From: Clytia hemisphaerica
Taxonomy: Eukaryota; Cnidaria; Hydrozoa; Leptothecata; Clytiidae
Length of the DNA: 64,000 bases
Reading direction: 5' to 3'
Assembly: GCA_902728285.1 (NCBI GenBank)
Contig: CACVBU010000474.1
Location: 1-64,000, forward strand
The notes under the pieces: generated by a model
What the model was told of the DNA's origin: nothing
What the model saw: the letters and a program-made list of their open reading frames with translations, nothing else
The model's database searches: none
Part shown: positions 1 through 40,200 of the stretch, piece after piece
Numbering within the stretch: position 1 is the stretch's first letter
Layout of the letters: each line of letters begins with the position of its first letter
Made by a program: the position numbers and the translations under genes

Positions 1-3000
1 GAATTGCACCTTGAAAGTGAAATTATTAAAATGAACAGTTTAAACTTAAATAATTTCTGATTAAATTTAGATGGTCAGATTAGCGAAAAGTGAATTAATT
101 CATTCAGATTGGATTTTCAAAGTAAACTTGTAAACCTTCGAATGTCCCTAAATGAATAAAATGGGACGAGCTATAAAAATCAATGAAAACTCCGAATCTA
201 TTCTATTTCTGGCGAAAAAAAAAACGATCCACGTTAAAGGAATGCTGGGAAAAAAATATTAATTTCAAAACAAATGCTGGGAATAAATAATCTATTACTA
301 AAACCAAAAAAATCTATATAATTTAACAATTCTAATGTTTACATATTTTTTTCATAATTTAAAGTCAAAATTTACAAAAAATAAGTTGAAATTGATGTAA
401 TCACATCTGAGATAAATTACTTGAAGTTATGTTTGGAGGCAGATATGGCGAGGTCTTCTGATGGTATTCTATATTCCGAGTTATCTTTACCAGTCAACCA
501 ATAGGTGGTCATTCGTCCTTTACCTTTGACTTCACGTTCACCACGACAAATGGATTGATAACCACCAAGGCTTTCCAATACTGTATAAGTGCTTTCCGAC
601 ATGTGAATTTTCAAAGCTGAAAAGTTCGAAAATTAAGGATAGTTAACATTCAATAAAATATTTATCCGAATTTTTGGAAATCAAACACTCGGTAAAAGTA
701 AGAGTACCAAAGGAGAGGTCTGACAAAGATATTTCAATTCTATAGCAACTAGAATAAATATCAAAATAAATTTTTGATGGTTACTATAGTCTCATAAAAA
801 AATCACGTGGATTATTAGAGGTTTTCAAACAAAAGATATCGTAAGACTGTTGAATATTTTAAAAAGTTTAGATAAATCTCAGCATCTAGTGTAATCTCTG
901 TATAGCAACATTATTTCTAATGTCCGTTACCAATAGCAACATAAATTCAATCTCCAAACAAGAAACTTAGAAGTCGAGGGTCCAGTAAGTCCAACAAATA
1001 GAAGTGTCTGCCTTTTAAAAGAGCATTTATTTTAGGGGTCTGTCTAAGTTCCAAGGCCAACACCATGAAATTAAAAGTGGGGGTGGGGCAATGAATATAG
1101 AGTCTGGCACAACCAAAAATTTTTACTTTGCAAGAAGGTGGGGGGAGGGGAGTTCATGACCCCCTTTGACCCCCCCCCTTGTCCCCCGGTGACGTGGGCC
1201 CTGAGTTCGGAAATACACTAAAGTATATGCAGAATACAATAAAAACTCACCATAACCACCACTTTCCATACGAGAAGCTGTATTCATTGTATCACCAAAC
1301 AAACAATAACGCGGCATTTTCGAGCCGACAACACCGGCCACAATGGGTCCAGTATTCAGTCCCATACGAAGCTGTACTTGAGAGCCGGGCATGTTTTTGT
1401 ATCCAACGCCATCGATGGTCGTCATAAGGGCCAGTGCCATGGACGCAATTTCGCCGGCATGATTGTCACCGTTACGTGTCGGTAATCCCGAGGCCACGAC
1501 GTCTATTTAGCGGAAAATATCATAGGTTTAGGGTTTACTTGGGTACCAACATAGGTATAACTTTTAACTTAAGTTAGCACAGTGTTTCTTACACCTATCT
1601 TTTACTTTTCGAGAACACCATTAAACTCTCTTAGCTATTTACAATAATTTCCGATAACGGAAATTTTTTAGCAATAAAATCGAACTAGATTCCATGTGAC
1701 TAAATAAGGTAAGGCAAATTCTACCAAAAAATGATTTCTATATATGAAAAAAATAAATACAAACTATAAAGTGATGAAAAGAAAAACAACCAAATTCAGA
1801 CTTACAGCAGTCTCCGATAGTTTCCACTTTGTAACAATCGAAAGATTCGATAATATCATCCATAATCGAATATAAGTCGTTTAATAATTCGACCACTTGA
1901 TAAGGTGAAGCGTCTGAGCAAATTTGACCAAAACCAACACAATCACTGGAGAAAAGGAAGATAGAAGTTGTATAAATACAAGGAAACCCTGGTATAAGCG
2001 AGTTGATGTTGTAAAGGCGTTTTCCTGCAGTGGAAACGGTAAGTTATTGCTTTGTTTGGATCTTGACCCACTAAGGTAAATCAGTATTTTTAGGGATTCA
2101 TACCTTGTAAGGAAATCACACTTGATAATTATATGTAATCAGAATGTCCAAGTTCAAACAGTGTAGAGACATCCTCCAAATTGCCCGATGATGGGAGAAG
2201 AATCTCTCCAAAAGTACATAGCCAAACTTAAATTTCGTGATCCAAGTCACGATAAAACTTCCAATATAGTATTTTTAAAGTCAGCAGCGATTTTATGATA
2301 TGAAAATCAAAATCAAAACAACTAAGTCGTATAAGTACCTGAAATAGATGGTAACGCTAGCAAAGTATTCTGGTTGAGGATTCTTTCCTAATTTCAATTC
2401 TTCAGCGATCAACGGTGGCAACATCTTGCTAAGAAGTAAGTCTCCTTTCTCTTTCTCTACAATAATATCAGCAGTACGTTCTGCGACGATAGATTCTAAG
2501 CTAGTTGTGTATTGCTCCATCAATTCGATCAAGTTATCCATCAATTCACCGCGATGTGGACAGATTTTACCGAGTTCCGACAAACAATATTTAAATTCTG
2601 GTCTGCATTTTGGATCTTCGTTCCAGCATAGTTCGATAAGTTGCATCAGCATTGAGGCTTGTTTTTTCTTCATTGGGCAGTTCGTCTTCTTCGACGGTCG
2701 GACGCAAACAATCGACAGCCATTTTCTCGTAGTCACGGCATTGCTAAAAGAGGGACGGAGATGAATTCTAAAAGATTGACTTTAACTCAATTCAATTCGA
2801 ATAAAACTTTCACTATTAACTTTAATATAGATGTCTTCTAAAAATAAAGAAAAATAGATCACCCTTTAAGTTGTGAACAGTTTGCATGTATTTAGGGGCG
2901 GAACGGGAAAAAGTAGGTCTCTTTTACAAGAACGATCTATACTTCCATGGATTGTACTTCAAACATTCTTATAATTTTGCGCGGCAAGCGCTTCGTTATA

Positions 3001-6000
3001 CACATGAATGTTGATACCATTCATCACTCAAAGAAAATATTAAAACATAACCCATTCTGTCCATTTTTAAAGTTTTTTCTCATTTTCATATTCAATTTTC
3101 AGAGAATTGTTTTAAGGCTTACGTCGATCCACTCAAATTATTCTTTCCCAACGAGGTGTAGCTTTTAATGATAATGTGTTTGTTGAACAACCATTAAAAG
3201 AGTGCTCAATACTTTTCGTAGAGCAAATTCAATAAAGTTTTATTTCAAAAATCACCATGTAAAATACACTACTAAAAGTTTCATGCTACATACGCAATCA
3301 TCAGATGTATCAGCTTTTAATGATATATTTTTCCCATCAATAGAAATGTAAATTTTTGAACTTCCAATTTTTGAAGGTAATTTTAAGGTGAATTAAAACA
3401 TAAGAAATTATACTCACAATAAGTTTCAATGTTTTTCCGGGGTCAATGAGTCTACCAACAATTTGAACAATTTCAGCTGGTCCTAAATGATCCACCTCGT
3501 GGTATGGATGCTGACGTGTGCACATTTCAACCATGATGATAGCAAAACTACAGACAGAAAGAATTAAAAGAAATTTAACATCATTTTGTTTACACTTCAC
3601 ACAGCTCCAGGTTTAGGCTCTACGAATTAAGAAAATGTGACCATATGATCCCAGGGGAAGGGATACCTAGGCAAGTAAAGGGTACGGGTAATTGTTGCCC
3701 TTGAGGGTACCTTCTTGGAGCCTGGAGCTCCCTGTAAAGGTTAAGAAAATTAGCACATTAAATCTCAGTCCAACAAGGGTCGAAAGAGTAGGAAAATTTC
3801 AGCTTTCTGCTCCTTCGAAAATCGAAATTTAGTCAAATTGGTACAAATTAGTCTCATTAAGGCTCGAAAAATACGCTTTTTTCTACTTTACCTCCTTTTA
3901 GACCCGCACGGGTCTGAACGTCGAAAGTTGGGCGGTGCATACCCGTCAGCTCACACCCCTGATACCCCGGGCATATAATTCACTGGAAATTAGGGTATGG
4001 TCGACTGCATTTAACGTTAGACGATGTTATCGTCCGTTACAGTGATAGTGAAAGCGGGAAAATATGGCGGTATGGCGGTATACAGAAAAAAATCGGAGTT
4101 GGCAAACTTTACCGACTGTAAACTATTTTCGGCAAAAAACCCGTTTGCGAATTTTCTTCGGCTTATTTCTTAGATAGTGATTTGTCTTATATAAATATAG
4201 TATACTATAGCATAGTCTAATTTAACCTTTAGAGTGTTAATGAAAATGTCTCTCTTAAAATACCTGTACATATCGCCAGCTCTTGATCCATAACCAACAT
4301 GATCGAGATGAGAGACGCCAGTTGCTGCAATCTCTGGTGCTGTCCACAATAATGAACTATTCGGTTTGACAGAAAAATGATTTAACGGTTAAAATTGCTA
4401 ATATTTAATGCGTAAAACCAGAAACTTGGCCGAGTTTCGAAGCTGTCCACAATAAGGAACTATTGGTGTGACAGAAAAAACGGCGAAATGAATAAATCCT
4501 ACTGGCTTTGGAAAAACAGAAATTTGATATCTATTTTAAGACGAATTGTCTACGTTTTGTTCAGCTTGTACACTTTTCATTTCAATTAAATATTGAATTC
4601 AGTACGAACACTTCGCCCACGTATGGATGTCTTTAAAACATGGCTTTTTAACTTTTTGTGTTTCAAAGAAAGATCTTCATATTTGAATCTATTAATTTGT
4701 TAGCTTAAATTTTAGTCATTTTAATAATTTGCTCAGCATTTTTATACCCATTCCCAAAAGAGAAAAATTCATCTAACTTTTTTTAACTTTTTGCGTTTCA
4801 AAGAAAGATCTTCATATCTGAGTCTAATAATTTGTTAGCCTAATTTTTGCTCAACATTGTTATACCCATTCCCAAAAGAGAAAAATTCATCCACTTGCCT
4901 GAATCGAAAATCAAACTTTTGTTTTAAGGTTATATGGAATTCGACCCTTCTGTAAGTAACTTACTAATAATCACATTCATCCAATTCGTTGAACCTTGGT
5001 AAACTAACACCGATTCCGTTTTCTGGTGAAAAGACACGAACACCTTCTTGACCAGATTTGAAAGATTTCAGTCCATAATCTAAATGATAGGATTATATAA
5101 AATTAAATTAAATGTTTTGTCCCAAACAGCCAGTGGTATCCGGTGGAAGAGGGATTTTAGAGGATTTTCAGTTTTTCGTAACTTTTTCCATTATCGAAGA
5201 AAACGATCGATTCAAATTTTCTACCGTGATGGCAGTTCTTCTTAGTTACAAACATTCAAACACAGATATCATATTCTTTTACACACTAGATAGGCTAACT
5301 GCTACAGATTTCCCGTGGAACTCTGTCCAGTTTCGAAGTCGGCAATGTTGTTTTCCAATTCATCTTACATTTTCGAGCGTTCGAATTTCAAACATTCGAA
5401 TCGTGCTTTTGCAATTGAAAACAAGATGGCGGACTAGTAAGCTCTAAAACTGGACACGCTTCCTGTTTTCGGGTAGCCCGATCCAGTCAAGTAGATTGAG
5501 ATCACTAGTTACAAAACTTTGCCAAATAGACTTCTTTTTAAAATAGTGTGCAGAAAATTAGGTACACAGCCTGACACAGCTGATTTCTTAAAAATTTTCA
5601 TATTTTTTTCTTCTCAGTCCATTTTGAAGATTTTTTTGCTACACATGAGATAGTAAAGCCTCACCTAGTAGGTTTTTTTTTATTTAATTCTTGAGGCGAC
5701 GAAAAATGCACAAAAACTTACCAGAAAGTTTGATAGTCCATCGATTATCAACCAAACAGTTAGAGCTCTTCAAACGACCATGTGATCCAATATCTGTGTT
5801 TTGTAAATACATCATTCCTCGACAAATATCCTGCAAGTACGAAAAGGATGTGATTCAATCATTTCTGAGGTCCATGCCTTGAACCAATTTTTTGGATAAT
5901 TCTACTAAGGGGTCTGTAAGTATCAGAGTACCAGTTTTGATTAGGCATTATCGGAATGTAATTTGCATCTTGAATTTAAATTAGATAGTCGACTTTCTGC

Positions 6001-6712
6001 AAAACCACCGTTAGATATGTAAGAGACAGCAGAAACAGAGGAAGTGCTTTTATGATTGTATTGACAGTGGAAGAAAGCCATCGAATTGACTTTAAACAGT
6101 CGACTTTTATCAAAAACGAGAAATAGGAAAGGTAGAAATTTGGACTTCTAAACTAGAGCTTCGAACAAAACAAAAAGTTCTCAGAGTGTGTCAACTATAA
6201 ACAAACCAACCTTTAACATTGAGTATCTGAAATCCCATCCAAGATCGATGTCATCATTGGACAAAATATCTTCCAAGCTGCCTTTACCACAAACTTCATT
6301 CAAGATGGCCACGTGGTCAGTATCGATGCAAGCTCCAATGAAGAGACAGAGATTCGGATGTTTGATGTCTCTCATTTCTTTCACTTCCCATCTCAATTGA
6401 TCGTTCAACTCTACGTTTTCTTTACGAATCAATTTAACAACAATGTCTCTTCCATTCCAATTACCTAAATGGAGAAGCAGAGATTATTAAAAGTTTCTCT
6501 AATACGAGAGTTTCAACCTTAGCGGATCGCCATAAACAAGGGTGGCGCTTCAATTTTTCTTGAATCATTGTAACGACAGAGTATTTTGTATACGTGAATT
6601 TACTGTCAAAGAGTTATAATTTTAAGAGGCTATGTTATGGACGTTAAAATGACGATATTTAGATATTTTATGTCACCTTGGAATACGATACAATGAATGG
6701 GATTGGATAATG

Positions 6713-6866
6713 ACCCTGGAAGAAGTTTCTCAATCCCAATCAACCAAAATCCTTGATCTGAGCTTTGAAACTGGTGCCCTAATGGTAGCACTACTCGATA
6801 AGGTGTAAATGTACCGAGAGCGCTAGATCAAATTGCGGATGTAGTTTTTTAGTCCAGGGTTTATTA
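6713..6866. mobile_element. Inverted-repeat element, family 2, internally deleted (unit A)
   Basis: Begins CCCTGGAAGAAGTTTCTCAA and closes near TCCAGGGT. Compared with 36021-36261 in unit C, about 91 bp are missing between two AGATC repeats. Unit B has the same deletion near 18722. Confidence 0.75.
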
Positions 6867-7775
6867 TCCAGTTTGGTGGATATAATTTTCTCAAATAACC
6901 CCAAAATTTGAACCGAATGTCCCCCCTTAAGGCGTGCTTCCGGGGAGCATCGTTATTCCTGGTTATTCCCGCTTACTTTTATATATCCCTGGACCAAGCT
7001 ATATCCGCCATCTTTGATCGAAGTTTTTTGAAAGTTGGTATCCGCGAAGAAAACATTGTAGTGTTTGAAACTTTGCCTACCGACAAACGGCGCTACATCA
7101 CTAGTGTACAAACGAAATAAGAACTAGCACTCTCTCCGCCGGTACCAATTTCAGGAAAACTCCGATCATAATATTTTGGTTGGCCGGCATTGAGTAACTT
7201 GGTCCTGGGATGTATAAAGATATATGTACAATGGTTATTCCTCACCTTGATTTACACAAACAGTTTTCTCTTCTCTCTGTTCACTCTTTCCTGAAACCAT
7301 ACTAATCATACTGATGAGAGACTTAGCACTACTCTTATTTTTCTTTTGGCGCATGCGTATAGTATCCCATTCAACCATCCAATCAGTGCTCATTAACTGT
7401 GCGTTCAATTCAATCTTCTTGTAATAAAGCCGACCAATATAGAACAAAACAGCAAGGATAGCTAAAGCAGCAAAAGCGGTCGGCGCTGCAATAACCGCAA
7501 TGTGTGTTTGACATCGACTTCCGGTGTGACTTGATTCACAGGTGCATAAACCGGAGCCGCTGTTTCCGTCCGAACATTTTCCAGTTACGCAATCGCACTT
7601 TTGGGAGCAATCTTTTCCATAATAGTCTGGCTTGCATTTACAGAAATCACCACCGGTGCAATTACCGTTCATCGCATGACAACCATACCTTAAATTGAAC
7701 AATACGCGATAAACTTATAGCTACATGGAAGGGATTTGGTATGCGGTCATTTGACGTCAATCAAATTTGTACTAG

Positions 7776-8274
7776 TAATCTCATGGTTAAGAGGGAAATT
7801 CGGGATAAATTTCCCGAGGTCAATTTTGAAATTTTTTGAAATTTCCCGAGTGCAACGAGGGAAATTTAAAACATTTCGAAATTTGACCGAGGGTAATTTA
7901 TCCAGAATTTCACGAAAATAAGCATGGGATTCCTGGTTAATCTCATGGTTGGGGTTGAAATTCTAGCAATTCTGAAAGACGTCAAATTTACACTGGAAAT
8001 CAATCTGAAACTTTAAAAAAGAGATCTGATAAAAGTCATAGAAGCGCGATTCGAGTTTTAATTGAATAATATTCCATTTAATTAAGCCTTCGAAGTTAGT
8101 AAGAAATTTGAAAAAGGTGATGAATTTCCAAACGATGGAAATTTCACTTTCGCGGGAAATTACAAAATCTAGGAGGGAAATTACAAAAGCTAGAAGGGAA
8201 ATTACAAGTTCGCGGGAAATTACAAATTAACGTAAGCTAAAACGTCAATCGAATTTCAATCAACCATGAGATTA
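7776..8274. mobile_element. Inverted-repeat element, family 1 (copy in unit A)
   Basis: Ends TAATCTCATGGTT and AACCATGAGATTA, about 500 bp, with internal GGGAAATTACAA short repeats and no coding capacity. It lies in the intron between cassette exons 22 and 23. It is absent from unit C at this place, so it marks the A/B lineage. Confidence 0.85.
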
Positions 8275-8638
8275 ATGTTACAAAGAACAAGTTCCAAAAA
8301 AGAATGCAGCGAGTGCAGTCAAGCAAATCAGTTGACAGCAAAACAATACTAATAGTGCCAATAGTGCTCGGGTAAGCATTTAGCGAGTCTATAACATACA
8401 AGTTGAACTTACTTCAGACACGTTGGAATGGCACAGTCATTGGTCGAATTATCTGTATTGATGTAAGCTTCATGACAAGTGCAATTTCCTGGCCTATAGG
8501 TAAAATAAATTACTATTGGTCTCGAGATTGTGATTTAAGTAATCTTTTATTCATTTTGAGCTAAAATTTGCTTTTCTCAATAGATTAACATCATTTGACT
8601 GATGCTGATCACAAAGAACGTTTTTATTAGACAGATAT

Positions 8639-9466
8639 GACCTCGTTCGCTAATAAGAATTGCACCTTGAGAGTGAAATTATTAAAATGAACAGTTTAAA
8701 CTTAAATAATTTCTGATTAAATTTAGATGGTCAGATTAGCGAAAAGTGAATTAATTCATTCAGATTGTATTTTCAAAGTAAACCTTCGAATGTCCCTAAA
8801 TGAATAGAATGGGACGAGCTATAAAAATCAATGAAAACTCCGAATCTATTCTATTTTTGGCGAAAAAAAACGATCCACGTTAAAGGAATGCTGGGAAAAA
8901 AATATTAATTTCAAAACAAATGCTGGGAATAAATAATCTATTACTAAAACCAAAAAAATCTATATAATTTAACAATTCTAATGTTTACATATTTTTTTCA
9001 TAATTTAAAGTCAAAATTTACAAAAAATAAGTTGAAATTGATGTAATCACATCTGAGATAAATTACTTGAAGTTATGTTTGGAGGCAGATATGGCGAGGT
9101 CTTCTGATGGTATTCTATATTCCGAGTTATCTTTACCAGTCAACCAATAGGTGGTCATTCGTCCTTTACCTTTGACTTCACGTTCACCACGACAAATGGA
9201 TTGATAACCACCAAGGCTTTCCAATACTGTATAAGTGCTTTCCGACATGTGAATTTTCAAAGCTGAAAAGTTCGAAAATTAAGGATAGTTAACATTCAAT
9301 AAAATATTTATCCGAATTTTTGGAAATCAAACACTCGGTAAAAGTAAGAGTACCAAAGGAGAGGTCTGACAAAGATATTTCAATTCTATAGCAACTAGAA
9401 TAAATATCAAAATAAATTTTTGATGGTTACTATAGTCTCATAAAAAAATCACGTTGATTATTAGAG
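8639..9466. repeat. Truncated fourth duplication unit
   Basis: It begins with the same left-edge sequence (GACCTCGTTCGCTAATAAG) as units B and C, and loses homology after TTATTAGAG at 9466. It contains only the orphan terminal exon. Confidence 0.9.
9063..9262 (-). pseudogene. Orphan fourth copy of the terminal cyclase exon
   Basis: This copy encodes the same 65 residues plus stop as the last receptor-cyclase exon, with the acceptor (CTTTTCAG) retained. The homologous stretch runs from 8639 to 9466 and then stops abruptly in unrelated sequence, so the preceding ten exons are missing. Its flanking bases (for example GAGAGTG and ACGTTGATT) resemble copy C rather than A or B. It is therefore the broken beginning of a C-like unit that followed A. 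It cannot make a cyclase alone. Confidence 0.9.
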
Positions 9467-9743
9467 GACCTTAGGATCTGAGGATCCAAATGTTCAAAAA
9501 TGGTCCAGTAGGGCTTGAAATATAGCCTAGAAACCAATAAATCCCTCCCAGATCGAAATAATCGATGAAATCAAGTTGAGGGCCTAAAATTGACATTCTC
9601 GCCCGAACTTCAATTTTCGAAAAATGGTAAATTAGCCAAAAGTGCAAATATATTATGGCACGGATTGTAGTCTCCTTTTTTAATGTGAGAAATATATTTC
9701 AGACATTGTACAACCTTTTCGATAACTATTGTATCGTTCGTTA

Positions 9744-9964
9744 AAGGGAAGAAATCTTCGCGGAATTTGATTTCACGGTTCACAGCTCAAAATTCGGAAG
9801 TTTCACGGAATTTAATTTTGCGGTTGAGAGGAATTTTTGTTTAAATATGGCTTATTTTGCCCCAAAAACACCAATTCTATAGGTGATTTTCTAAATCATG
9901 AGAATATTCTTGTTTCGCAGAATTTAATTCCGCGATAATTTATTCCGCGAAAACTTCTTCCCTT
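9744..9964. mobile_element. Short inverted-repeat element with CGCGGAATTT motifs
   Basis: Ends AAGGGAAGAAATCTTCGCGG and CCGCGAAAACTTCTTCCCTT are near-perfect inverted repeats around a 220-bp non-coding body. Related fragments (GTGAAAACTTCTTTCCCTTT) appear at 23450-23660. Confidence 0.75.
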
Positions 9965-10840
9965 GGTAAAAGCGGGAAAATATATATGAGCCGAGTTTAA
10001 AGCCGCATTGGTGGTAGAGTTTCGAAATCATGGTGGAGAATTTATCACAGGGAAAGTTTTCTACAGCGAAAAATTAGGTTGTAGAAAATATAATTTTCAT
10101 TACCAACCCCTTTACATAACAGCTAGGAAGTTGATTCTCGCAATTCTGTGGGAGGAGATTGTATATGCAGCAAATCATAAAAAAGTGAGCTATAAGGGGC
10201 TGGGTATGAATTTGGTTGTCACCAACAGATCTAATGCTAAGTAAAATCTGAGAACAAATTAAGTTAGTCACGTATGAAATGGAGTAACTGAAATCCAAAC
10301 ACAAGCTTTAGTTGGAAAAAATGCTATGACCACATCCCGAAATCGGATCTTAAACTTTAAAGGAAACAGTGGCTTACTCTATGTAAGCATCTGAATTGAA
10401 TTAAATTTCTTTGAACACCTTCCTGTAACCTGTAACCTGATACGAATTCTTTAGCCAGAGCATTGTATTTTAAAGTTATTTCATTGGGCAAGTGGGATTT
10501 TAAGGGAATTTCTCTCGGTTCTTAAATTTCAAAAATTTCTTAAAATTCAAAAGCTCAACAATATCCAGTGGGTAAATTGCGATTTAGCCGTTAATCGCAC
10601 GATGAGTTATTTTTTCTTCTTTGGCACGCCTTCAAAGAGAGCAATTAATCGTTAATCACACTCTTCAATGAGGCGCCAATATTTACAAAATTGATTTTAA
10701 TGTTTTTTCTTACATTTTTTTTGCATCGAACGTTTTAATTGCATTCGAAATTTATTTTGTGAGAAAGAAAATCAATAAACAACAATAAAAGAAAGACATA
10801 AAGAGAAGAGAATAATATAAAACTCTCAGTGTAATTTCTG

Positions 10841-11336
10841 TAATCTCATGGTTGATTGAAATTCGATTGACGTTTTTGCTTACGTTAATTTGTAATTTCC
10901 CGCGAACTTGTAATTTCCCTCCTAGCTTTTGTAATTTCCCTCCTAGATTTTGTAATTTCCCGCAAAAGTGAAATTTTCATCGTTTGGAAATTCATCACCT
11001 TTTTCGACTTTCTTACTAACTTCGAAGGCTTAAGTAAATGGAATACTATCCAATTAAAACTCGATTCGCGTTTCTATGACTTAGTTGACCTCTTTTTAAA
11101 TTTTCAGATCGATTTCCAGTGTTAAATTGACGTCTTTCAGAATTGTTAGAATTTCAATCCAAACCATGAGATTAACCAGGAATCCCATGCTTGTTTTCGT
11201 GAAATTCTGGATAAATTACCCTCGGTCAAATTTTGAAATGTTTTAAATTTCCCTCGTTGCACTCGGGAAATTTCAAAAAATTTCAAAATTGACCTCGGGA
11301 AATTTATCCCGAATTTCCCTCATAACCATGGGATTA
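10841..11336. mobile_element. Inverted-repeat element, family 1 (opposite orientation, in spacer)
   Basis: Reverse-complement copy of the element at 7776-8274, with the same ends and the same internal GGGAAATT motifs. Its flank also shows GATTACTAGTAC, like the flank of the unit A copy, so the true terminus may extend a few bases. Confidence 0.85.
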
Positions 11337-11673
11337 CTAGTACTAATTTTCAATATTTTATTTTCAATATTTGTATAAGAGTTTCATGAACTTTCAGGAA
11401 GGAATTTCAGGAAAAATACTTTTCATTGGGGTCATAGCATAATTAGGTTACTGTAGCGTGTTTTTTTTGCACAGTTGACCACGAAGGTTTTTTCTCGTGA
11501 TTTGCGGAAAGAAGAATGGTGTGGTTTTAGTGTTTTGAAACGAGAAAAAAGAAACATTTTTTAGCTCGCTAAAAAAGCGGGAGGAGTTTTACCACATCTA
11601 AAAATTTAGACCTAAATTTAGATATGTCACTATGTCAATGGTGAATGAACTATATTAAAACCTAATATTGTTA

Positions 11674-11833
11674 TTTATAGCCCTGCAATACAACTGTCAA
11701 TCATTTTTAAGAAAACTGATTGGATGATTAATGTCACGTGGCCGGTCAATATTTCTCCATAGTGACCAGTTATGAAATTGACATCATTAAAAATGTCAAT
11801 TACTTTTATTATTTTATTTTGCAGGGCTATAAA
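11674..11833. mobile_element. 160-bp inverted-repeat element
   Basis: Perfect 15-bp ends TTTATAGCCCTGCAA and TTGCAGGGCTATAAA around a non-coding core, just outside the left edge of unit B. Confidence 0.8.
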
Positions 11834-12309
11834 TGGATTATTAACCTCAGAAGCCTGTCTCTCTTGCAAAATATCGACCTCGTTCGCTAATAAGAATTGC
11901 ACCTTGAAAGTGAAATTATTAAAATGAACAGTTTAAACTTAAATAATTTCTGATTAAATTTAGATGGTCAGATTAGCGAAAAGTGAATTAATTCATTCAG
12001 ATTGGATTTTCAAAGTAAACTTGTAAACCTTCGAATGTCCCTAAATGAATAAAATGGGACGAGCTATAAAAATCAATGAAAACTCCGAATCTATTCTATT
12101 TCTGGCGAAAAAAAAAACGATCCACGTTAAAGGAATGCTGGGAAAAAAATATTAATTTCAAAACAAATGCTGGGAATAAATAATCTATTACTAAAACCAA
12201 AAAAATCTATATAATTTAACAATTCTAATGTTTACATATTTTTTTCATAATTTAAAGTCAAAATTTACAAAAAATAAGTTGAAATTGATGTAATCACATC
12301 TGAGATAAA

Positions 12310-20381: not shown

Positions 20382-21176
20382 CTATAGGTAAAATAAATTA
20401 CTATTGGTCTCGAGATTGTGATTTAAGGTGGGAGTCACATGAAAAATTGAGAAAGTTGATTTTTTACATTTTCCTGTATAACTTTTGAACTTGAAGAGAT
20501 TTTTAAATGAAATTTTCTACAGAGGTAACTTAACAATAGATAATTTCAAAAATGTAAAAAAAAGTCTAAAAATAGCCAAGACGGGGGTAAAACCAGCCAG
20601 GGGGTAATGTACTGTGAAAATATTGTGTCAACGTTTTAGAAAAATCTACAAAACCTATCACAAAAATTTTTTTTGCAGCTTGTTAATATTTGGATAAGGA
20701 GTGTTATGAATGGAATTTTTTTTTTAAATTTCATTCCAGGGGGTCTGGAAACTAAAAAATGCATTTTTTGAATTAAGAAATCAAAGAAGTATTTTTTCAA
20801 AAATGTAATCCATTCATAACACTCTAGACCATAAATTGAATTTCTCCTGAAAATTTCAAGTTCATAGCACTTGTCAATCCTGAGAAAACGTTGCCAAGGT
20901 GTGCGAAAACCCCCTGAAACCTATTTTGAGAAAACGGTCCGTAAAGTCAGAAGTAGATATATATCTCTATTTCTCTGTAATAAATCGACCGTTTTACAAA
21001 ATTCTTTCGCTGTTTGACTAAAATGGACTATAGTTCTACTTTATATACTTTAAAAAAGGCTTTGAAATATCAAAATAGTCCAGAAATTCCAAACTATCAC
21101 TTTCACGTGATGTGCGCCAATCCTTAAAATTTTGCGCCAAACTCCACGTCAACATTGATTTAAGTCAATAGACCTT

Positions 21177-27795: not shown

Positions 27796-29326
27796 TTACT
27801 TGAAGTTATGTTTGGAGGCAGATATGGCGAGGTCTTCTGATGGTATTCTATATTCCGAGTTATCTTTACCAGTCAACCAATAGGTGGTCATTCGTCCTTT
27901 ACCTTTGACTTCACGTTCACCACGACAAATGGATTGATAACCACCAAGGCTTTCCAATACTGTATAAGTGCTTTCCGACATGTGGATTTTCAAAGCTAAA
28001 AAGTTCGAAAATTAAGGATAGTTAGCATTCAATAAAATATTTATCCGACTTTTTCGAAATCAAACACTCGGTAAAAGTAAGAGTACCAAAAAGGGGTCTG
28101 ACAAAGATATTTCAATTCTATAGCAACTAGAATAAATATCAAAATAAATTTTTGATGGTTACTATAGTCTCATAAAAAAATCACGTTGATTATTAGAGAT
28201 TTTCAAACAAAAGATATCGTACGACTGTTGAATATTTTAAAAAGTTGAGATAAATCTCAGCATCTAGTGTAATCTCTCTATAGCAACATTATTTCTAATG
28301 TCCGTTACCAATAGCAACATAAATTCAATCTCCAAACAAGAAACTTAGAAGTCGAGGGTCCAGTAAGTCCAACAAATAGAAGTGTCTGCCTTTTAAAAGA
28401 GCATTTATTTTAGGGGTCTGTCTAAGTTCCAAGGCCAACACCATGAAATTAAAAGTGGGGGTGGGGCAATGAATATAGAGTCTGGCACAACCAAAAATTT
28501 TTACTTTGCAAGAAGGCCCCACCTTGGGGGGGAGTTCATGACCCCCTTTGACCCCCCCCCCTTGTCCCCCGGTGACGTGGGCCCTGAGTTCGGAAATACA
28601 CTAAAGTATATGCAGAATTCAATAAAAACTCACCATAACCACCACTTTCCATACGAGAAGCTGTATTCATTGTATCACCAAACAAACAATAACGCGGCAT
28701 TTTCGAGCCGACAACACCGGCCACAATGGGTCCAGTATTCAGTCCCATACGAAGCTGTACTTGAGAGCCGGGCATGTTTTTGTATCCAACGCCATCGATG
28801 GTCGTCATAAGGGCCAGTGCCATGGACGCAATTTCGCCGGCATGATTGTCACCGTTACGTGTCGGTAATCCCGAGGCCACGACGTCTGTTTAGCGGAAAA
28901 TATCATAGGTTTAGGGTTTACTTGGGTACCAACATAGGTATAACTTTTAACTTAAGTTAGCACCGTGTTTCTTACACCTATCTTTTATTTTTCGAGAACA
29001 CCATTAAACTCTCTTAGCTATTTACAATAATTTCCGATAACGGAGATTTTTTAGTAATAAAAACGTACTAGATTCCATGTGACTAAATAAGGTAAGGCAA
29101 ATTCTACCGAAAAATAATTTCTATATGAAAAAACAAAATACAAACTATAAAATGATGAAAAGAAAAACAGAGAAATTCAGACTTACAGCAGTCTCCGATA
29201 GTTTCCACTTTGTAACAATCGAAAGATTCGATAATATCATCCATAATCGAATATAAGTCGTTTAATAATTCGACCACTTGATAAGGTGAAGCGTCTGAGC
29301 AAATTTGACCAAAACCAACACAATCA
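27796..29326 (-). CDS. Receptor cyclase exons 30-32 (copy C): class III guanylyl cyclase domain
   Basis: Exons 29187-29326, 28634-28885 and 27796-27995. Visible catalytic features: first metal Asp1591 (YFSDCVGFG), second metal Asp1635 in KVETIGD, guanine-selecting Glu1631 (KVE) and Cys1703 (MPRYC), glycine loop GPIVAGVVG, and Asn1710/Arg1714 of NTASRMES for the transition state. Glu plus Cys mark guanylyl rather than adenylyl specificity. Unusual changes are Cys and Gly where most members have Ile and Thr (DIVGFT), and Cys in place of Ala after the second metal Asp. A normal C-terminal segment of about 60 residues follows (Cys-Arg-Gly-Glu, [11 protein letters not shown]). It acts in the cytosol as a dimer. 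Confidence 0.93.
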
Positions 29327-32300
29327 CTGGAGAAAAGGAAGATATAAGTTGTATAAATACAAGGAAACCCTGGTATAAGCGAGTTGATGTTGTAAAGGCG
29401 TTTTCCTGCAGTGGAAACGGTGAGTTATTGCTCTGTTTGGATCTTGACCCACTAAGTAAATCCGTATTTTTAGGGATTCATACCTTGTAAGGAAATCACA
29501 CTTGATAATTATATGTAATCAGAATGTCTAATTTCAAACAGTGTAGAAAATAGTCGAACGTGCGCAACGCACTGGGCTCAACTTCAGTGGCTTCAAATCA
29601 TTCATAGGCCAATTGTAGACCCCCAGATATTCACCCAATGAACAAGTGTGCCAAATTTCAACCAAATCCGATCATTTTGGAGGCCTGTAGACTGCTCCAA
29701 AGCTTTAGCCTCGTTTTGGCAAAAAACTCGTTCCCAGGCCCCAAAAATCAAAATTTTTGAAAAATGCAAAAAGCAACCCAAGATATTCACCGAAGGAACA
29801 AGTGTGCAAAATTTCAGCCAAATCGAACAATTTTTGAAGTCTCCAGGCTGCCCCAAAGTTTTAGCCTCGTTTTGGCGAAAAACTCGTGCCCAGGCCCCAA
29901 AAATCAAAATTTTCAAAAAATGAAAAAAACACCCCCAGATATTCACCCAAGGAACAAGTGTGCAAAATTTCAGCAAAATCGAACAATTTTTGAAGTCTCC
30001 AGGCTGCCCCAAAGTTTTAGCCTCGTTTTGGCGAAAAACTTGTGCCCAGGCCCCAAAAATCAAAATTTTCAAAAAATGAAAAAAACACCCCCAGATAATC
30101 ACCCAAGGAACAAGTGTGCCAAATTTCAGCCAAATCGAACAATTTTTGAAGTTTCCAGGCTGCCCCAAAGTTTTGGGACATACACACAGACAGACACACA
30201 CACAGACACACATTCTCAGATTCTAACTCAACTGTCGAACGTGCTAACCACACTGGCTCAACTTCAGTATCTTTGAAATCATTTGTAGGCCCAATTGTAA
30301 ACTTAATGGCTTAAGAAAAATTATAGCATTTTGGGTTTTAGCCTCGTTTTGGCGAAAAACTCGTCCCCAGGCCCCAAAAATTAAAATTTTGAAAAAATGA
30401 AAAAAACACCCCCAGGGATTTGCCCAAGGATCAAGCGTTCAAAATTTCAGCCCAATCAGACCATTTTTGAAGTCTCCAGCCTGCCCCAAAGTTTTAGCCT
30501 CGTTTTGGCGAAAAACTCGTCCCAGGCCCCAAAAATTAAAATTTTGAAAAAATGAAAAAAACACCCCCAGGGATTTGCCCAAGGATCAAGCGTTCAAAAT
30601 TTCAGCCCAATCGGACCATTTTTGAAGTCTCCAGCCTGCCCCAAAGTTTTAGCCTCGTTTTGGCGAAAAACTCGTCCCCAGGCCCAAAAAATCAAAATTT
30701 CGAAAAAATGAAAAAAACACCCCCAGGGATTTGCCCAAGGATCAAGTGTTCAAAATTTCAGCCCAATCGGACAATTTTTGAAGTCTCCAGGCTGCCCCAA
30801 AGTTTTAGCCTCGTTTTGGCGAAAAACTCGTCCCCAGGCCCCAAAAATTAAAATTTTGAAAAAATGAAAAAAACACCCCCAGGGATTTGCCCAAGGATCA
30901 AGCGTTCAAAATTTCAGCCCAATCGGACCATTTTTGAAGTCTCCAGCCTGCCCCAAAGTTTTAGCCTCGTTTTTGGCGAAAACTCGTCCCCAGGCCCCAA
31001 AAATCAAAATTTCGAAAAAATGAAAAAAACACCCCCAGGGATTTGCCCAAGGATCAAGTGTTCAAAATTTCAGCCAAATCGGACCATTTTTGAAGTCTCC
31101 AGCCTGCCCCAAAGTTTTAGCCTCGTTTTGGCGAAAAACTCGTCCCCAGGCCCCAAAAATCAAAATTTTGAAAAAATGAAAAAAACACCCCCAGGGATTT
31201 GCCCAAGGATCAAGTGTTCAAAATTTCAGCCCAATCGGACCATTTTTGAAGTCTCCAGCCTGCCCCAAAGTTCTAGCCTCGTTTTGGCGAAAAACTCGTC
31301 CCCAGGCCCCAAAAATCAAAATTTTGAAAAAATGAAAAAAACACCCCAGGGATTTGCCCAAGGATCAAGTGTTCAAAATTTCAGCCCAATCGGACCATTT
31401 TTTAAGTCTCCAGCCTGCCCCAAAGTTTTTGTCACAGACACACAGACACACACACACACAGACAGACATTCTCAGATTCTAGCTCAACTGAAGTTGAGAA
31501 CTGAAGTTGAGAACATCCTCCACATTATCCGATGAAATCTCGTGATCCAAGTCACGATAAAACTTCCAATATAGTATTTTTAAAGTCAGCAGCGATTTTA
31601 TGATATGAAAATCAAAATCAAAACAACTAAGTCGTATAAGTACCTGAAATAGATGGTAACGCTAGCAAAGTATTCTGGTTGAGGATTCTTTCCTAATTTC
31701 AATTCTTCAGCGATCAACGGTGGCAACATCTTGCTAAGAAGTAAGTCTCCTTTCTCTTTCTCTACAATAATATCAGCAGTACGTTCTGCGACGATAGATT
31801 CTAAGCTAGTTGTGTATTGCTCCATCAATTCGATCAAGTTATCCATCAATTCACCGCGATGTGGACAAATCTTACCGAGTTCCGACAAACAATATTTAAA
31901 TTCTGGTCTGCATTTTGGATCTTCGTTCCAGCATAGTTCGATAAGTTGCATCAGCATTGAGGCTTGTTTTTCTTCATTGGGCAGTTCGTCTTCTTCGACG
32001 GTCGGACGCAAACAATCGACAGCCATTTTCTCGTAGTCACGGCATTGCTAAAAGAGGGACGGAGATGAATTCTAAAAGATTGACTTTAACTCAATTCAAT
32101 TAGAATAAAACTTTCACTATTAACTTTAATATAGATGTCTTCTAAAAATAAAGAAAAATAGATCACCCTTTAAGTTGTGAACAGTTCGCATGTATTTAAG
32201 AGCGGAACGGGAAAAAGTAGGTCTCTTTTACAAGAACGATTTATACTTCCATGGATTGTACTTCAAACATTCTTATAATTTTACGCGGCAAGCGCAGCGT

Positions 32301-35300
32301 TATGCATGAATGTTGATACCATTCATCACTCAAAGAAAATATTAAAACATAACCCATTCTGTCCATTTTTAAAGTTCTTTCTCATTTTCATATTCAATTT
32401 TCAGAGAATTGTTTTAAGGCTTACGTCGATCCACTCAAATTATTCTTTCCCAACGAGGTGTAGCTTTTAATGATAATGTGTTTGTTGAACAACCATTAAA
32501 AGAGTGCTCAATACTTTTCGTAGAGCAAATTCAATAAAGTTTTATTTCAAAAATCACCATGTAAAATACACTACTAAAAGTTTCATGCTACATACGCAAT
32601 CATCAGATGTATCAGCTTTTAATGATATATTTTTCCCATCAATAGAAATGTAAATTTTTGAACTTCCAATTTTTGAAGGTAATTTTAAGGTGAATTAAAA
32701 CATAAGAAATAATACTCACAATAAGTTTCAATGTTTTTCCGGGGTCAATGAGTCTACCAACAATTTGAACAATTTCAGCTGGTCCTAAATGATCCACCTC
32801 GTGGTATGGATGCTGACGTGTGCACATTTCAACCATGATGATAGCAAAACTACAGACAGAAAGAATTAAAAGAAATTTAACATCATTTTGTTTACACTTC
32901 ACACAGCTCCAGGTTTAGGCTCTACGAATTAAGAAAATGTGACCATATGATCCCAGGGGAAAGGATACCTAGGCAAGTAAAGGGTACGGGTAATTGTTGC
33001 CCTTGAGGGTACCTTCTTGGAGCCTGGAGCTCCCTGTAAAGGTTAAGAAAATTAGCACATTAAATCTCAGTCCAACAAGGGTCGAAAGAGTAGGAAAATT
33101 TCAGCTTTCTGCTCCTTCGAAAATCGAAATTTAGTCAAATTGGTACAAATTAGTCTCATTAAGGCTCGAAAAATACGCTTTTTTCTACTTTACCTCCTTT
33201 TTAGACCCGCCAAGGGTCTGAACGTCGAAAGTTGGGCGGTGCATACCCGTCATCTCGCACCCCTGATACCCCGGGCATATAATTCACTGGAAATTAGGGT
33301 ATGGTCGACTGCATTTAACCGTAGACGATGTTATCGTCCGTTACAGTGATAGTGAAAGCGGGAAAATATGGCGGTATGGCGGTATACAGAAAAAAGTCGG
33401 AGTTGGCAAACTTTACCGACTGTAAACTATTTTCGGCAAAAAAACCCGTTTGCGAATTTTCTTCGGCTTATTTCTTAGATAGCGATTTGTCTTATATAAA
33501 TATAGTATACTATAGCATAGTCTAATTTAACCTTTAGAGTGTTTATGAAAATGTCTCTCTTAAAATACCTGTACATATCGCCAGCTCTTGATCCATAACC
33601 AACATGATCGAGATGAGAGACGCCAGTTGCTGCAATCTCTGGTGCTGTCCACAATAATGAACTATTCGGTTTGACAGAAAAATGATTTAACGGTTAAAAT
33701 TGCTAATGTTTAATGCGTAAAACCAGAGACTTGGCCGAGTTTCGAAGCTGTCCACAATAAGAAACTATTGGTGTGACAGAAAAAACGGCGAAATGAATAA
33801 ATCCTACTTGCTTTGGAAAAACAGAAATTTGATATCTATTTTAAGACGAATTGTCTACGTTTTATTCAGCTTGTACACTTTTCATTTCAATTAAATATTG
33901 AATTCAGTACGAACACTTCGCCCACGCATGGATGTCTTTAAAAAACATGGCTTTTTAACTTTTTGTGTTTCAAAGAAAGATCTTCATATTTGAATCTATT
34001 AATTTGTTAGCTTAAATTTTAGTCATTTTAATAATTTGCTCAGCATTTTTATACCCATTCCCAAAAGAGAAAAATTCATCTAACTTTTTTTTACTTTTTG
34101 CGTTTCAAAGAAAGATCTTCATATCTGAGTCTAATAATTTGTTAGCCTAATTTTTGCTCAACATTGTTATACCCATTCCCAAAAGAGAAAAATTCATCCA
34201 CTTTCCTGAATCGAAAATCAAACTTTTGTTTTAAGGTTATATGGAATTCGACCCTTCTGTAAGTAACTTACTAATAATCACATTCATCCAATTCGTTGAA
34301 CCTTGGTAAACTAACACCGATTCCGTTTTCTGGTGAAAAGACACGAACACCTTCTTGACCAGATTTGAAAGATTTCAGTCCATAATCTAAATGATAGGAT
34401 TATATAAAATTAAATTAAATGTTTTGTCCCAAACAGCCAGTGGTATCCGGTGGAAGAGGGATTTTAGAGGATTTTCAGTTTTTCGTAACTTTTTCCATTA
34501 TCGAAGAAAACGATCGATTCAAATTTTCTACCGTGATGGCAGTTCTTCTTAGTTACAAACATATAAACACAGATATCATATTCTTTTACACACTAGATAG
34601 GCTAACTGCTACAGATTTCCCGTGGAACTCTGTCCAGTTTCGAAGTCGGCAATGTTGTTTTCCAATTCATCTTACATTTTCGAGCATTCGAATTTCAAAC
34701 ATTCGAATCGTGCTTTTGCAATTGAAAACAAGATGGCGGACTAGTAAGCTCTAAAACTGGACACGCTTCCTGTTTTCGGGTAGCCCGATCCAGTCAAGTA
34801 GATTGAGATCACTAGTTACAAAACTTTGCCAAATAGACTTCTTTTAAAATCGTGTGCAGAAAATTATGTACACAGCCTGACACAGCTGATTTCTTAAAAA
34901 TGTTCATATTTTTTTCTTCTCAGTCCATTTTGAAGATTTTTTTGCTACACATGAGATAGTAAAGCCTCACCTAGTAGGTTTTTTTTATTTAATTCTTGAG
35001 GCGACGAAAAATGCACAAAAACTTACCAGAAAGTTTGATAGTCCATCGATTATCAACCAAACAGTTAGAGCTCTTCAAACGACCATGTGATCCAATATCT
35101 GTGTTTTGTAAATACATCATTCCTCGACAAATATCCTGCAAGTACGAAAAGGATGCGATTCAATCATTTCTGAGGTCCATGCCTTGAACCAATTTTTTGG
35201 ATAATTCTACTAAGGGGTCTGTAAGTATCAGAGTACCAGTTTTGATTAGGCATTATCGGAATGTAATTTGCATCTTGAATTTAAATTAGATAGTCGACTT

Positions 35301-37249
35301 TCTGCAAAACCACCGTTAGATATGTAAGAGACAGCAGAAACAGAGGAAGTGCTTTTATGATTGTATTGACAGTGGAAGAAAGCCATCGAATTGACTTTAA
35401 ACAGTCGACTTTTATCAAAAACGAGAAATAGGAAAGGTAGAAATTTGGACTTCTAAACTAGAGCTTCGAACAAAACAAAAAGTTCTCAGAGTGTGTCAAC
35501 TATAAACAAACCAACCTTTAACATTGAGTATCTGAAATCCCATCCAAGATCGATATCATCATTGGACAAAATATCTTCCAAGCTGCCTTTACCACAAACT
35601 TCATTCAAGATGGCCACGTGGTCAGTATCGATGCAAGCTCCAATGAAGAGACAGAGATTCGGATGTTTGATGTCTCTCATTTCTTTCACTTCCCATCTCA
35701 ATTGATCGTTCAACTCTACGTTTTCTTTACGAATCAATTTAACAACAATGTCTCTTCCATTCCAATTACCTAAATGGAGAAGCAGAGATTATTAAAAGTT
35801 TCTCTAATACGAGAGTTTCAACCTTAGCGGATCGCTATAAACAAGGGTGGCGCTTCAATTTTTCTTGAATCATTGTAACGACAGAGTATTTTGTATACGT
35901 GAATTTACTGTCAAAGAGTTATAATTTTAAGAGGTTATGTTATGGGCGTTAAAATGACGATATTTAGATATTTTATGTCACCTTGGAATACGATACAATG
36001 AATGATGGGATTGGATAATGACCCTGGAAGAAGTTTCTCAATCCCAATCAACCAAAATCCTTGATCTGAGTTTTGAAACTGGTGCCCTAATGGTAGCACT
36101 ACTCGATAACGGTGTAAATGTACCGAGAGCGCTAGATCTATTTTTCCCTGAATACTTGATAATATAGCGCCGTTTTACGTCAATTTGAAACACTTTGCGG
36201 ATACCACTTTCGATAAGAAAGCTCAGATCAAAGATGGCGGATGTAGTTTTTTAGTCCAGGGTTTATTATCGAGTTTAGTGGATATTCTCAAATAACACCA
36301 GAAAGTCGGATAACCCCAAAATTTGAACCGAATGTTCCCCCCTTAATGCGTGCTTCCGGGAGCATCGTTATTTCTGGTTATTCCCACTTACTTTTATATA
36401 TCCCTGGACCAAGCTATATCCGCCATTTTTGATCGAAGTTTTTTGAAAGTTGGTATCCGCAAAGAAGCCATTGTAGTGTTTGAAACTTTGCTTACCGACA
36501 AACGGCGCTCTACATCACTAGTGTACAAACGAAATAAGAACTAGCACTCTCTCCACCGGTACCAATTTCAGGAAAACTCCGATCATAATATTTTGGTTGG
36601 CCGGCATTGAGTAACTTGGTCCTGGGATGTATAAATATATATGTACAGTGGTTATTCCTCACCTTGGTTTACACAAACAGTTTTCTCTTCTCTCTGTTCA
36701 CTCTTTCCTGAAACCATACTAATCATACTGATGAGAGACTTAGCACTACTCTTATTTTTCTTTTGGCGCATGCGTATAGTATCCCATTCAACCATCCAAT
36801 CAGTGCTCATTAACTGCGCGTTCAATTCAATCTTCTTGTAGTAGAGGCGACCAATATAGAACAAAACAGCAAGGATAGCCATAGCAGCAACAGCGGTCGG
36901 TGCTGCAATAACCGCAATGTGTGTTTGACATCGACTCCCGGTGTGACTTGATTCACACGTGCATAAACCGGAACCGCTGTTCCCGTCCGAACATTTTCCA
37001 GTTACACAATCGCACTTTTGGGAGCAATCTTTTCCATAATAGTCTGGCTTGCATTTACAGAAATCACCTCCAGTGCAATTACCGTTCATCGCATGGCAAC
37101 CATATCTTAAATTGAACAATGGGCCATTCCATTAAATTTCCATACAGGGGGGGGGGGTGGACGACCCTTTTCAAGTCAAAAAAGATTTCTCGGAGATACC
37201 CCTGGAAAATGGAAAAATTAGCAAAACATCCCTTGGAAAATTTATTTTC

Positions 37250-37291
<42 letters not shown>

Positions 37292-40200
37292 TATACAAGT
37301 TCAAGGCACACGAGGGCCTCTGAGAACCGGATCTTGATTACAATTGTCTTGTCTCGAATCTTTTCGGATGTTTTTTCCAAGCTTCGTTGAGTCTTTCTTT
37401 AAAGATTTTGACAGTCTTTGCCTCTACAACGTATCTTGGTAATCTATTCCAGTAATCTATACCTGTAAGTATCGGTGGACGAACTAAAATCAGTCTTTTA
37501 CCCCTCGGGAATTTTAAAATCATTTTTTTACCCCCTGGAAAAACAAAAAAACACTCTTTTAGACCTCCTGGAAATTCTGCTCAAGTCACCCCCTGGAAAT
37601 GTTCGTCCATCCCCCCCTGTATGGATATAAAATGGAATGGCCCGATACGCGATTAGTTTATAGCTACATGAAAGGAATTGGGTATGAGTTTACGAGTCTC
37701 GAATGTTTTCAAATACGCAGTCATTTGACATCAATCAAATCTGTCATCATACAAAGAATTCATAATATGCAGCACTGGAGACTCTTCTAAGAATTATTAA
37801 AAATTTCTACCCAATACGTCATTTTTTCTTTTGTTCAAGTGACGTATTTAGTGGAAAATTTTAAAAGTTCTCAGAAGACCTTCCAGTGATGCATACCATG
37901 AATAACTTCCAAAAAGAATGCAGCGAGTACAGTGAAGCAAATAAATTTATAGAAAAATATTACTAATAGAACCAATAGTACTCGAGTGAGAATTGTGGGT
38001 CTATAAAGAAACAGTATACAAGTTGAACTTACTTCAGACATGTTGGAATGGCACAGTCATTGGTCGAATTATCTGTATTGATGTAAGCTTCATGACAAGT
38101 ACAATTTCCTGGCCTGTAGGTAAAAGAAATTACTATTGGTTCTCGAGATTGTGATTTAAGTAATCATTGTCTTCTTTTTTTTTTGGGGGGGGGGGGGTTA
38201 AAATTTGCTTTTCTCAATAGTTAAACATCATTTAACTGATTACTTTTTACTGATGCTGATCACCAAACACGTTTTTATTAGACAGATAAGGGTACTCTTT
38301 TACACAGCTCTAGAATGGAGAATGATAGAGTGTATTACTTGAAACAATATTCTTCTGAGAGATTATTCTCAAAAAAAAGTTTGTATTAAAAAGAGTGTAT
38401 TAGTCAGAGATTTACTTACGCTAAACAATCGCCAAAGATGCATCCTGGACAAGAAGGAACTTCACAATTTGCACCAGTGTATAATTGTTGATTGGTGAAA
38501 GGATCAATTTTACAGCTGTAATGAATTATACAGTAATTCAATAAATAAAACTTTGTGTCGTGGTGTCGAGACAGCTGATTAGCAAAGTGGATTGAAAAAT
38601 TAGAATGCCAAAAAATAAGAATAATGCGAATCCTGCTTTCTGGAAAATGGAAAGCTACTGCAAGATGCAAACAAAAAGCTTTCGAACTCAATGAAAATAT
38701 CTGTCAGTAACGAAACGAGAGAGATTAAAAGAGGTACTACATACGAGCACGTGTCTTGTTGAATGCATTCTCCATTCTCCCACATGTGGTGATTATCAGG
38801 CGAAACCATACCGCCACAACCGCCAGTGCAAAAGAATGCGGGTGGAATGCGAATGGTCATATTTACATTCTGCATTGCTTCTGATGTTTGATGTTTCAAA
38901 TTCATCGTCGATTTGCAGCCTTTAATTCTATAAACGAGAAAATAGATAAATGATAAATTGACTTTTTCCAGCATAGTTTGGTTATGGTCATAAAGAAATC
39001 ACTTAACTAGCTTTTGTGGATACTGACCACACCAGATTATAAGACAACTAGTTTTATAGATTCAGACTTTTTGAAGAACAAATTGGTTTACAGTTCAGTA
39101 AATGCAAGTGTTGTCAAAACCTTTTACATCCAAATTTTCAAAATACCTTTTTGATGGAGGGCTTTTCCTTAGCTGTCTAGCAACTCTCAAGATAAAAGAG
39201 AACTGGCTGTATAATCTTATTTTTGAGCAGCATGAACATGTTTTAGTAGTAGAATTAAGAAACCCACTTACGTAACACTGATCAATTCAGAATCTGGTGC
39301 TGGCATATAAAACATATTTTGACCAGTGATTTGAACCTCTTTCAAGACATTGTCTTTACTGATATTGTAAGGTGCAACGTCGTCACCAAGGTACAGATAA
39401 CGCTTAGCAACTAAAGATTCTTTTCCAATGATCGTCATATTTTCCGAATAATCGATTTGCAGAAGGAGAGCTATGATGAAATTAAATCCGCTTTTACTGG
39501 GCCTTTTCATAAATTACGTCACAAACATCACTTGCCTCGTATTCAAACAATTACCATGTTGATTACGTCCCTTGAGACATTAAATGATTTTTTATGAATA
39601 GAAAGTAGTTTTAATAAAATACGCTGGGAGTTAATCACCATGGCAATAATTTCAGAACGAGGCAAGTGATATTCGTGACGTAATTTATGAAAAGGTCTAT
39701 TTGATACACCTATCAGCCCTTAGCAGTGTGTTCAGCTTTTGAGAAGACTGGTGACTACAGGGGGGTCGGTACTGAGTTGTGGGGGCCAGTGCCGGGTGGT
39801 GGTCTGATAAGGAAAGTAAAAAACAACTTAGTACATGGTACTAAGTTGTGGTTCTAATTGAAAAAAACATTTTTGCAACTTTGTATCAAGGGTCTAAATG
39901 GTGGTCTCAATACTCAATATGAGGCATCAAGTTAGTATCTGGTACTCAAAATCCTGCAAAATTACAAAGAAGGTTCTTTCACTTTCTCTTGACTTATCCA
40001 ATTTTTAAGAAAATGCAAGATAATGAGTTGAAGATAATTTCAATTCAATAATATACTTCAGTAGCTTCAAATTATTTATAGGCCCAATTGTAGACACCCA
40101 GATATTCATTCATCCAAGGAAGAATTGTTTCCAAAATTTCAGCCAGATCCAGGCTGCCTAAAAGTTTTAGCCTCGTTTTGGCGAAAAACTCGTCCCCAAG

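Follow-up and report, generated by a model that had tools for sequence, protein, structure and literature searches.

A receptor guanylyl cyclase gene of Clytia hemisphaerica carries its 3' half in tandem behind a single ectodomain

Results

We analyzed a 64,000-nucleotide stretch of the Clytia hemisphaerica genome (assembly GCA_902728285.1, contig CACVBU010000474.1, here called C332, positions 1 to 64,000; hereafter the window), the start of which is an end of this 560,744-bp contig. The window contains a receptor guanylyl cyclase gene of the natriuretic-peptide receptor (NPR)-like type, the 3' half of which lies in tandem behind a single ectodomain. An earlier note on this DNA had described one ectodomain followed by three tandem copies of the cytoplasmic half, and the exon numbers used here (21 for the last ectodomain exon, 22 to 32 for each cytoplasmic cassette) are those of that note. 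Genome searches covered the 417-Mb assembly of 951 contigs. The genome also has a paralogue on contig C308, which served as outgroup and reference and for which 40 kb was fetched.

The ectodomain (head) occupies 38420 to 55885 on the minus strand. We placed 18 exons there, rather than the 21 counted earlier, the last being exon 21 (donor 38420/38419); the order of a head followed by cassettes stands. This placement is based on colinearity with the C308 paralogue, on the splice chain, and on Pfam and PDB matches. In the splice chain, 16 of the 17 joins are phase consistent and one is out of phase, so that part of the gene model is approximate. The head contains an ANF_receptor ligand domain (PF01094; E value of 1.6e-15; 57.5 bits against a cut-off of 25.4). 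Its first 516 residues (55885 to 48584) gave no Pfam match up to an E value of 0.1 and no PDB match up to an E value of 1; they are conserved with the C308 paralogue, and all 16 matches of this N-terminal region in the assembly fall on C332 or C308. Relative to the paralogue, the ectodomain has a synonymous divergence (dS) of 0.40 and a ratio of non-synonymous to synonymous divergence (omega) of 0.21, calculated over 11 of the 18 exons. Within the window, ectodomain exons were seen only upstream of the first cassette (C), as the earlier note had it, and none was found for the second (B). When the assembly was searched with the exon 21-22 region, 15 matches were obtained: 4 on C332, 2 on C308, and 9 short ones (34 to 53 bases) elsewhere. 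We considered a haplotig or a second head elsewhere in the genome and rejected this idea, given that the N-terminal head matches C332 and C308 only and that the exon 21-22 matches on other contigs are short.

Three cassettes of exons 22 to 32 follow on the minus strand. Cassette C (27796 to 38113) adjoins the ectodomain and has an open frame, which encodes an EGF-like stalk, a putative hydrophobic helix, a kinase homology domain, and a guanylate cyclase domain. Cassette B (12310 to 20381), as assembled, carries an extra base in exon 24. In the assembled cassette A (417 to 8493), which stops at the contig end, exon 29 contains an extra base; the sequence is otherwise that of B. The exons have the same order in all three cassettes and their splice sites are intact, as had been reported, with AG acceptors at 33/33 exons and GT at 30/30 internal donors. 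Exon lengths are equal in C, B, A, and the paralogue, save for exon 23 of the paralogue (+9), exon 24 of B (+1), and exon 29 of A (+1). Exon 21 (last base, 38420) leaves two codon bases, which exon 22 of C, B, and A each takes up. The three phase-compatible junctions named earlier are therefore correct at their coordinates, and the match at all three is automatic, since the three acceptor exons are duplicates of one exon. By block, C and A are 96.9% (2,176 columns), 98.8% (4,609), 93.8% (897), and 80% (398) identical, and the similarity of C, A, and B is not due to chance. A search of the assembly with the cassette protein, for which the best 60 of 168 candidates were scored, gave 66 listed matches; among these, identities above 75% occur on C332 and C308 only.

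The gene is assigned to the NPR-like receptor guanylyl cyclases by its ectodomain, kinase homology, and cyclase domains, and its product is a predicted enzyme. The best PDB match is ANP receptor 1 (9bcv), to which cassette C aligns over its residues 86 to 722 (E value of 1.8e-143 for the whole sequence). The kinase homology domain (PF07714; E value of 2.4e-33) reads HGRLKSSNC where ANP receptor 1 has HGNLKSSNC. In the cyclase domain (PF00211; E value of 5.8e-63), the conserved metal- and guanine-site residues, which we take to include the catalytic ones, align with those of ANP receptor 1. Exon 23 contains a hydrophobic stretch, by reading a putative membrane helix, that aligns close to where the match to ANP receptor 1 begins, and Pfam EGF matches in the stalk are below their cut-offs. 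Frameshifts aside, only two of the 740 residues, both within the hydrophobic stretch, distinguish the protein of C from that of the A/B type. Because the encoded halves are nearly the same protein, the "alternative signalling halves" of the earlier note is too strong a term.

To compare the cassettes codon by codon, we pooled A and B, which are not separable in these counts, as one A/B type; at the extra base of A or B, either the column was left out or the copy whose exon is as long as that of C was used. Across 740 codons, 21.5 synonymous and 2.5 non-synonymous changes separate C from the A/B type (omega of 0.032). With the C308 paralogue as the outgroup, 11 synonymous and 2 non-synonymous changes fall on the A/B branch (p of 1.4e-5) and 9 and 1, respectively, on the C branch (p of 3.6e-5), while one change remained unpolarized. 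These p values are measured against a neutral non-synonymous fraction of 0.744, obtained from the intron and flank spectrum, and the polarized codon list was typed from the pairwise table, with a two-base codon change counted as two. Between C and the C308 paralogue, the cassette dS is 0.33 and omega is 0.18.

The differences are unevenly distributed along the cassette. Codons 1 to 175 (exons 22-23) hold 19 of the 23 differing codons and have a dS of 0.173, compared to 0.011 in codons 176 to 740 (exons 24-32). Of the 24 coding differences that distinguish C from the A/B type, 20 fall in exons 22-23. Divergence per alignment window is 2.8 to 18% around exons 22-23 and mostly ~1% in exons 24 to 29. 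The low dS indicates that the 3' exons were homogenized later; exons 22-23 are old copies. In exons 22-23, the A/B branch carries 9 synonymous and 2 non-synonymous changes (p of 1e-4). Between C and the A/B type, exons 24-32 show differences at 4 of 1,696 coding sites, none of them non-synonymous, versus 84 of 4,840 noncoding sites (p of 2e-7), for which the direction of change is not polarizable; the adjoining noncoding DNA thus differs ~7-fold more than the coding sequence. For this comparison, 228 splice-border sites (3 differences) were set apart. On the A/B branch, ~11 non-synonymous changes would be expected in these exons under neutrality, and 0 were seen. These counts suggest that the A/B-type cassette was probably translated after the duplication, and a cassette dead since its origin would not be expected to show such constraint. 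The simpler view offered earlier, recent tandem duplication with decay, fits poorly with purifying selection on the A/B type, with old copies of exons 22-23 (dS of 0.17), and with homogenized exons 24-32.

Once spliced, C is open throughout, and we therefore rejected the idea, raised by the listing of open frames, that C is the decayed copy. As assembled, B loses the frame in exon 24 and A loses it in exon 29, through one extra base each. Each extra base is absent from the other of these two copies, from C, and from the C308 paralogue. Consensus error is the likelier source of both, given the pattern of differences between A and B (described below), in which indels far outnumber substitutions; real mutations are possible.

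The 3' flank of C ends at ~27370, where a copy of intron 21 follows immediately (junction at 27270 to 27372, minus strand); the same junction precedes A, at 8535 to 8637. The B flank leaves the C flank at the same point, passing into a segment here called X (9468 to 11870). The repeated unit therefore extends from intron 21 to a point shortly after the stop codon. Duplication of a cassette and deletion between two complete genes would leave the same kind of junction, which cannot be dated by itself. Between the C stop codon and the junction (27797 to 27370), we found neither AATAAA nor ATTAAA, and the flank has the variant hexamers AATAGA, AATACA, and AATGAA. The only AATAAA hexamers after the C stop codon (27363 and 27286) are inside the intron-21 copy at the junction. 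X carries AATAAA at 11818, 11810, and 11362. The duplication breakpoint thus appears to have separated C from the AATAAA hexamers present downstream of B (27797 to 27370 versus 12311 to 11810). The stop codon of exon 32 of C, at 27800, overlaps a sequence that resembles a splice donor fairly well (CAA|GTAATT) and is in a phase suited to exon 22 of the following cassette, making a read-through protein of tandem cassettes conceivable.

The intron-21 copy before B is split by a 6.84-kb insertion (20424 to 27273), for which A has an empty site. The insertion consists of nested transposons: an outer element of ~1.65 kb and, within it, an inner element of ~5.2 kb. The outer element is multicopy and found uninterrupted, at ~1.65 kb, elsewhere in the genome (best 40 of 1,995 candidates scored). 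With its TTAA duplication, terminal inverted repeats, and other copies, the insertion has the marks of a TTAA-target DNA transposon.

We also asked whether A is an independent copy. A and B are 99.84% identical over 8,543 columns. Leaving out 3 mismatches at the transposon edge, they differ over ~8.5 kb by a single substitution and 13 gaps of one base each, and most of these differences lie in short runs of one base. In contrast, the two 3' blocks of C and B differ by 91 substitutions, 15 one-base gap runs, and 8 longer gap runs (Fisher p of 5e-9 for the contrast between substitutions and indels). The A-B differences resemble consensus errors in a single sequence that was rendered twice, and the independence of A is therefore in doubt. 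Beside A lies a fragment (F; 8635 to 9467, minus strand) that the earlier note had missed, consisting of the end of intron 31, exon 32 (9262 to 9064, identical to exon 32 of A), and 3' flank. F is a mosaic, B type above ~9250 and C type below ~8900, with a substitution relative to the respective type only at the break. Between 9467 and 9252, F and C differ at 8 sites, and F and B at a single site, located at the break; from 9251 down to the transposon edge, it shows no substitution and 4 gap columns relative to C. In total, F and C differ by 8 substitutions and 5 gap columns (13 differences).

F and A may reflect an unequal crossover between the exon-32 regions of B and C, expanding the array, or two haplotypes joined at the contig end, and we give these two origins equal weight. 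The order expected from a crossover is the one found: B type, then C-type flank and junction, then a B-type cassette. It is an evenly balanced question whether A, with the F-A arrangement, is an assembly product, that is, repeat or other-haplotype sequence equal to B placed at the contig end. A runs up to the first base of the contig and lacks the last 23 bp before the homology border; its differences from B are 1 substitution against 13 one-base indels; B has two nested insertions and A has none, the remainder being the same; and F is letter-like B and then letter-like C, as a haplotype join would give. On the other side, an unequal B-C crossover near exon 32 would yield the same mosaic F, junction, and cassette, so a true recent expansion fits as well, and precise excision, as reported for TTAA elements, could explain the empty site in A. 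This matter concerns A only and is compatible with any reading of B. The three tandem copies described earlier thus hold as anatomy and coordinates in the assembly, whereas A and B at the contig end should be counted as two independent copies only with reads.

Several other features were noted. Intron 29 of C contains a 156-bp tandem satellite (29619 to 31429) with no matching stretch in A or B, and a related unit is present upstream of cassette C, at 40148 to 40245. A 510-bp dispersed element is present in intron 22 of B (19654 to 20162) and of A (7763 to 8274) and, inverted and 94% identical, in X (10841 to 11349); the copies flanking exons 23-32 of B could pair in a transcript as long double-stranded RNA. 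Minus-strand open frames at 59648 to 61800 may encode, judging by their motifs, a proprotein convertase. An exact 161-bp direct repeat at 63743 to 64000, the end of the window, is perhaps part of a tandem array. Elsewhere in the assembly, contig C398 matches cyclases in two long open frames, of 515 and 427 amino acids (L001 and L002), and at C417:180075-181502, kinase homology through cyclase is matched within one 689-amino-acid frame at 30% identity. Contig C900, 14.6 kb long, carries mitochondrial genes, named by reading their translations, with TGA as tryptophan and the order cox2-atp8-atp6-cox3-nad2-nad5-nad6-nad3-nad4L-nad1-nad4-cob-cox1; a tRNA scan of the first 10 kb of this contig found none. 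Code and order fit the hydroidolinan hydrozoans (Hydroidolina). Several of the gene adjacencies appear in excerpts of PMC4655093.

Discussion

Our leading reading, held tentatively and at somewhat less than an even chance, is that B is spliced to the shared head, which would give one receptor gene a second 3' end. We propose that a tandem duplication took in the 3' half of the gene, from intron 21 to a point shortly after the stop codon, and left out the ectodomain. Cassette C, in first position, would have lost the original downstream flank with its AATAAA hexamers, and the last cassette would retain it. Transcripts running through C would then splice exon 21 to exon 22 of either C or B, and the outcome would be the same receptor with an almost identical cytoplasmic half and a different 3' end. 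Because the products differ by two residues, the effect would be on 3' ends and dose rather than on signaling. Receptor cyclases act as dimers, and we infer that a bad B half would poison dimeric receptors, placing A/B-type exons under purifying selection. Homogenization between copies reached exons 24-32 and not exons 22-23. Since no head was found for B and the C flank has neither AATAAA nor ATTAAA, read-through from C into B with splicing of exon 21 to B would be the simplest route to expression and translation of B. The long-range splicing raised in the earlier note is thus possible and has gained some support, because the C flank also stops short of the AATAAA hexamers on the B side. In a broader form of the proposal, which we regard as plausible but doubtful, the cassettes would be interchangeable cytoplasmic units joined to one ectodomain through long-range exon 21-to-22 splicing, each maintained in working order by selection since receptor dimers would mix their products, in an array still growing and homogenized by unequal exchange.

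Several points weigh against splicing of B to the shared head. With products that would differ at only 2 of 740 residues, it is hard to see what a second half would add. The assembled sequences of B and A both contain a frameshift, and no other sign of decay was seen. The junction AATAAA hexamers (27363 and 27286) or the variant hexamers of the C flank could serve to end transcripts after C, and the 6.84-kb nested transposon stands before exon 22 of B. For codons 176 to 740 alone, the ratio of synonymous to non-synonymous changes is 2:0 on each branch (p of 0.07), which is not decisive, and the strength of the case for exons 24-32 comes from the noncoding comparison, which is not polarizable. 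Exons 22-23 could owe their constraint to an earlier period in which B possessed a head of its own.

The two main rivals are a lost second head and concerted evolution without use, each of which accounts for part of the pattern. B may be the remnant of a second complete tandem gene whose head was deleted between the C flank and the second intron 21; purifying selection would then date from the headed period, and B would now be starting to decay. The dS of 0.17 in exons 22-23, an old split at about half of the cassette dS of 0.33 to the paralogue, would agree with this, as would the frameshift in B as assembled, and such a deletion would leave the same junction. We nevertheless consider a lost head rather unlikely, as the assembly has no second head outside C332 and C308, the headless junction is older than the outer transposon and the inner one within it, and exons 24-32 have 0 non-synonymous differences while noncoding sites differ by 1.7%. 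Concerted evolution without use, in which unequal crossing over and conversion act on the array and selection acts only on the head-adjacent copy, would account for the strongly uneven divergence (2.8 to 18% versus windows of ~1%) and for the B-type/C-type mosaic in F. However, exchange alone would not spare exons over introns (4/1,696 versus 84/4,840), and exons 22-23 are constrained on the unshared A/B branch (9:2; p of 1e-4), which makes this account quite improbable. We attach very little probability to the idea that B has its own promoter and yields a headless membrane cyclase, with the exon-23 helix as a signal anchor. Each cassette does have the putative hydrophobic helix and complete kinase homology and cyclase domains, frameshifts aside, but the product would be without ligand control, and the DNA before B is transposon, with no promoter or first exon known there (none was searched for).

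Headless partial gene duplicates are normally written off as dead, and here the 3' half is constrained on its own branch. The locus can therefore serve to test whether terminal cassettes in tandem are put to use through a common head, and how exchange and selection shape a single duplicate along its length.

Our literature search listed no paper on this locus. In mod(mdg4) of Drosophila, as described in excerpts of PMC12692577, common 5' exons are likewise joined to alternative 3' exons. There, according to the same excerpts, joining is by trans-splicing from independent promoters, whereas the Clytia cassettes are near-identical, multi-exon, and known from DNA alone. Closest to hand is the C308 paralogue, which has exons 22-32 with the same borders and a colinear ectodomain but differs in having a single head and a single cassette within the 40 kb covered and an exon 23 that is 9 bases longer. 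Natriuretic-peptide receptor cyclases share the ANF_receptor ectodomain, kinase homology, and cyclase in the same order; unlike them, the Clytia gene has an extra N-terminal region without a family match, an EGF-like stalk, and repeated 3' cassettes. In the immunoglobulin heavy chain locus, one upstream part is joined to two tandem multi-exon tails, C-mu and C-delta, through splicing and poly(A) choice. The C-mu and C-delta tails differ strongly, whereas the cassettes described here are almost equal.

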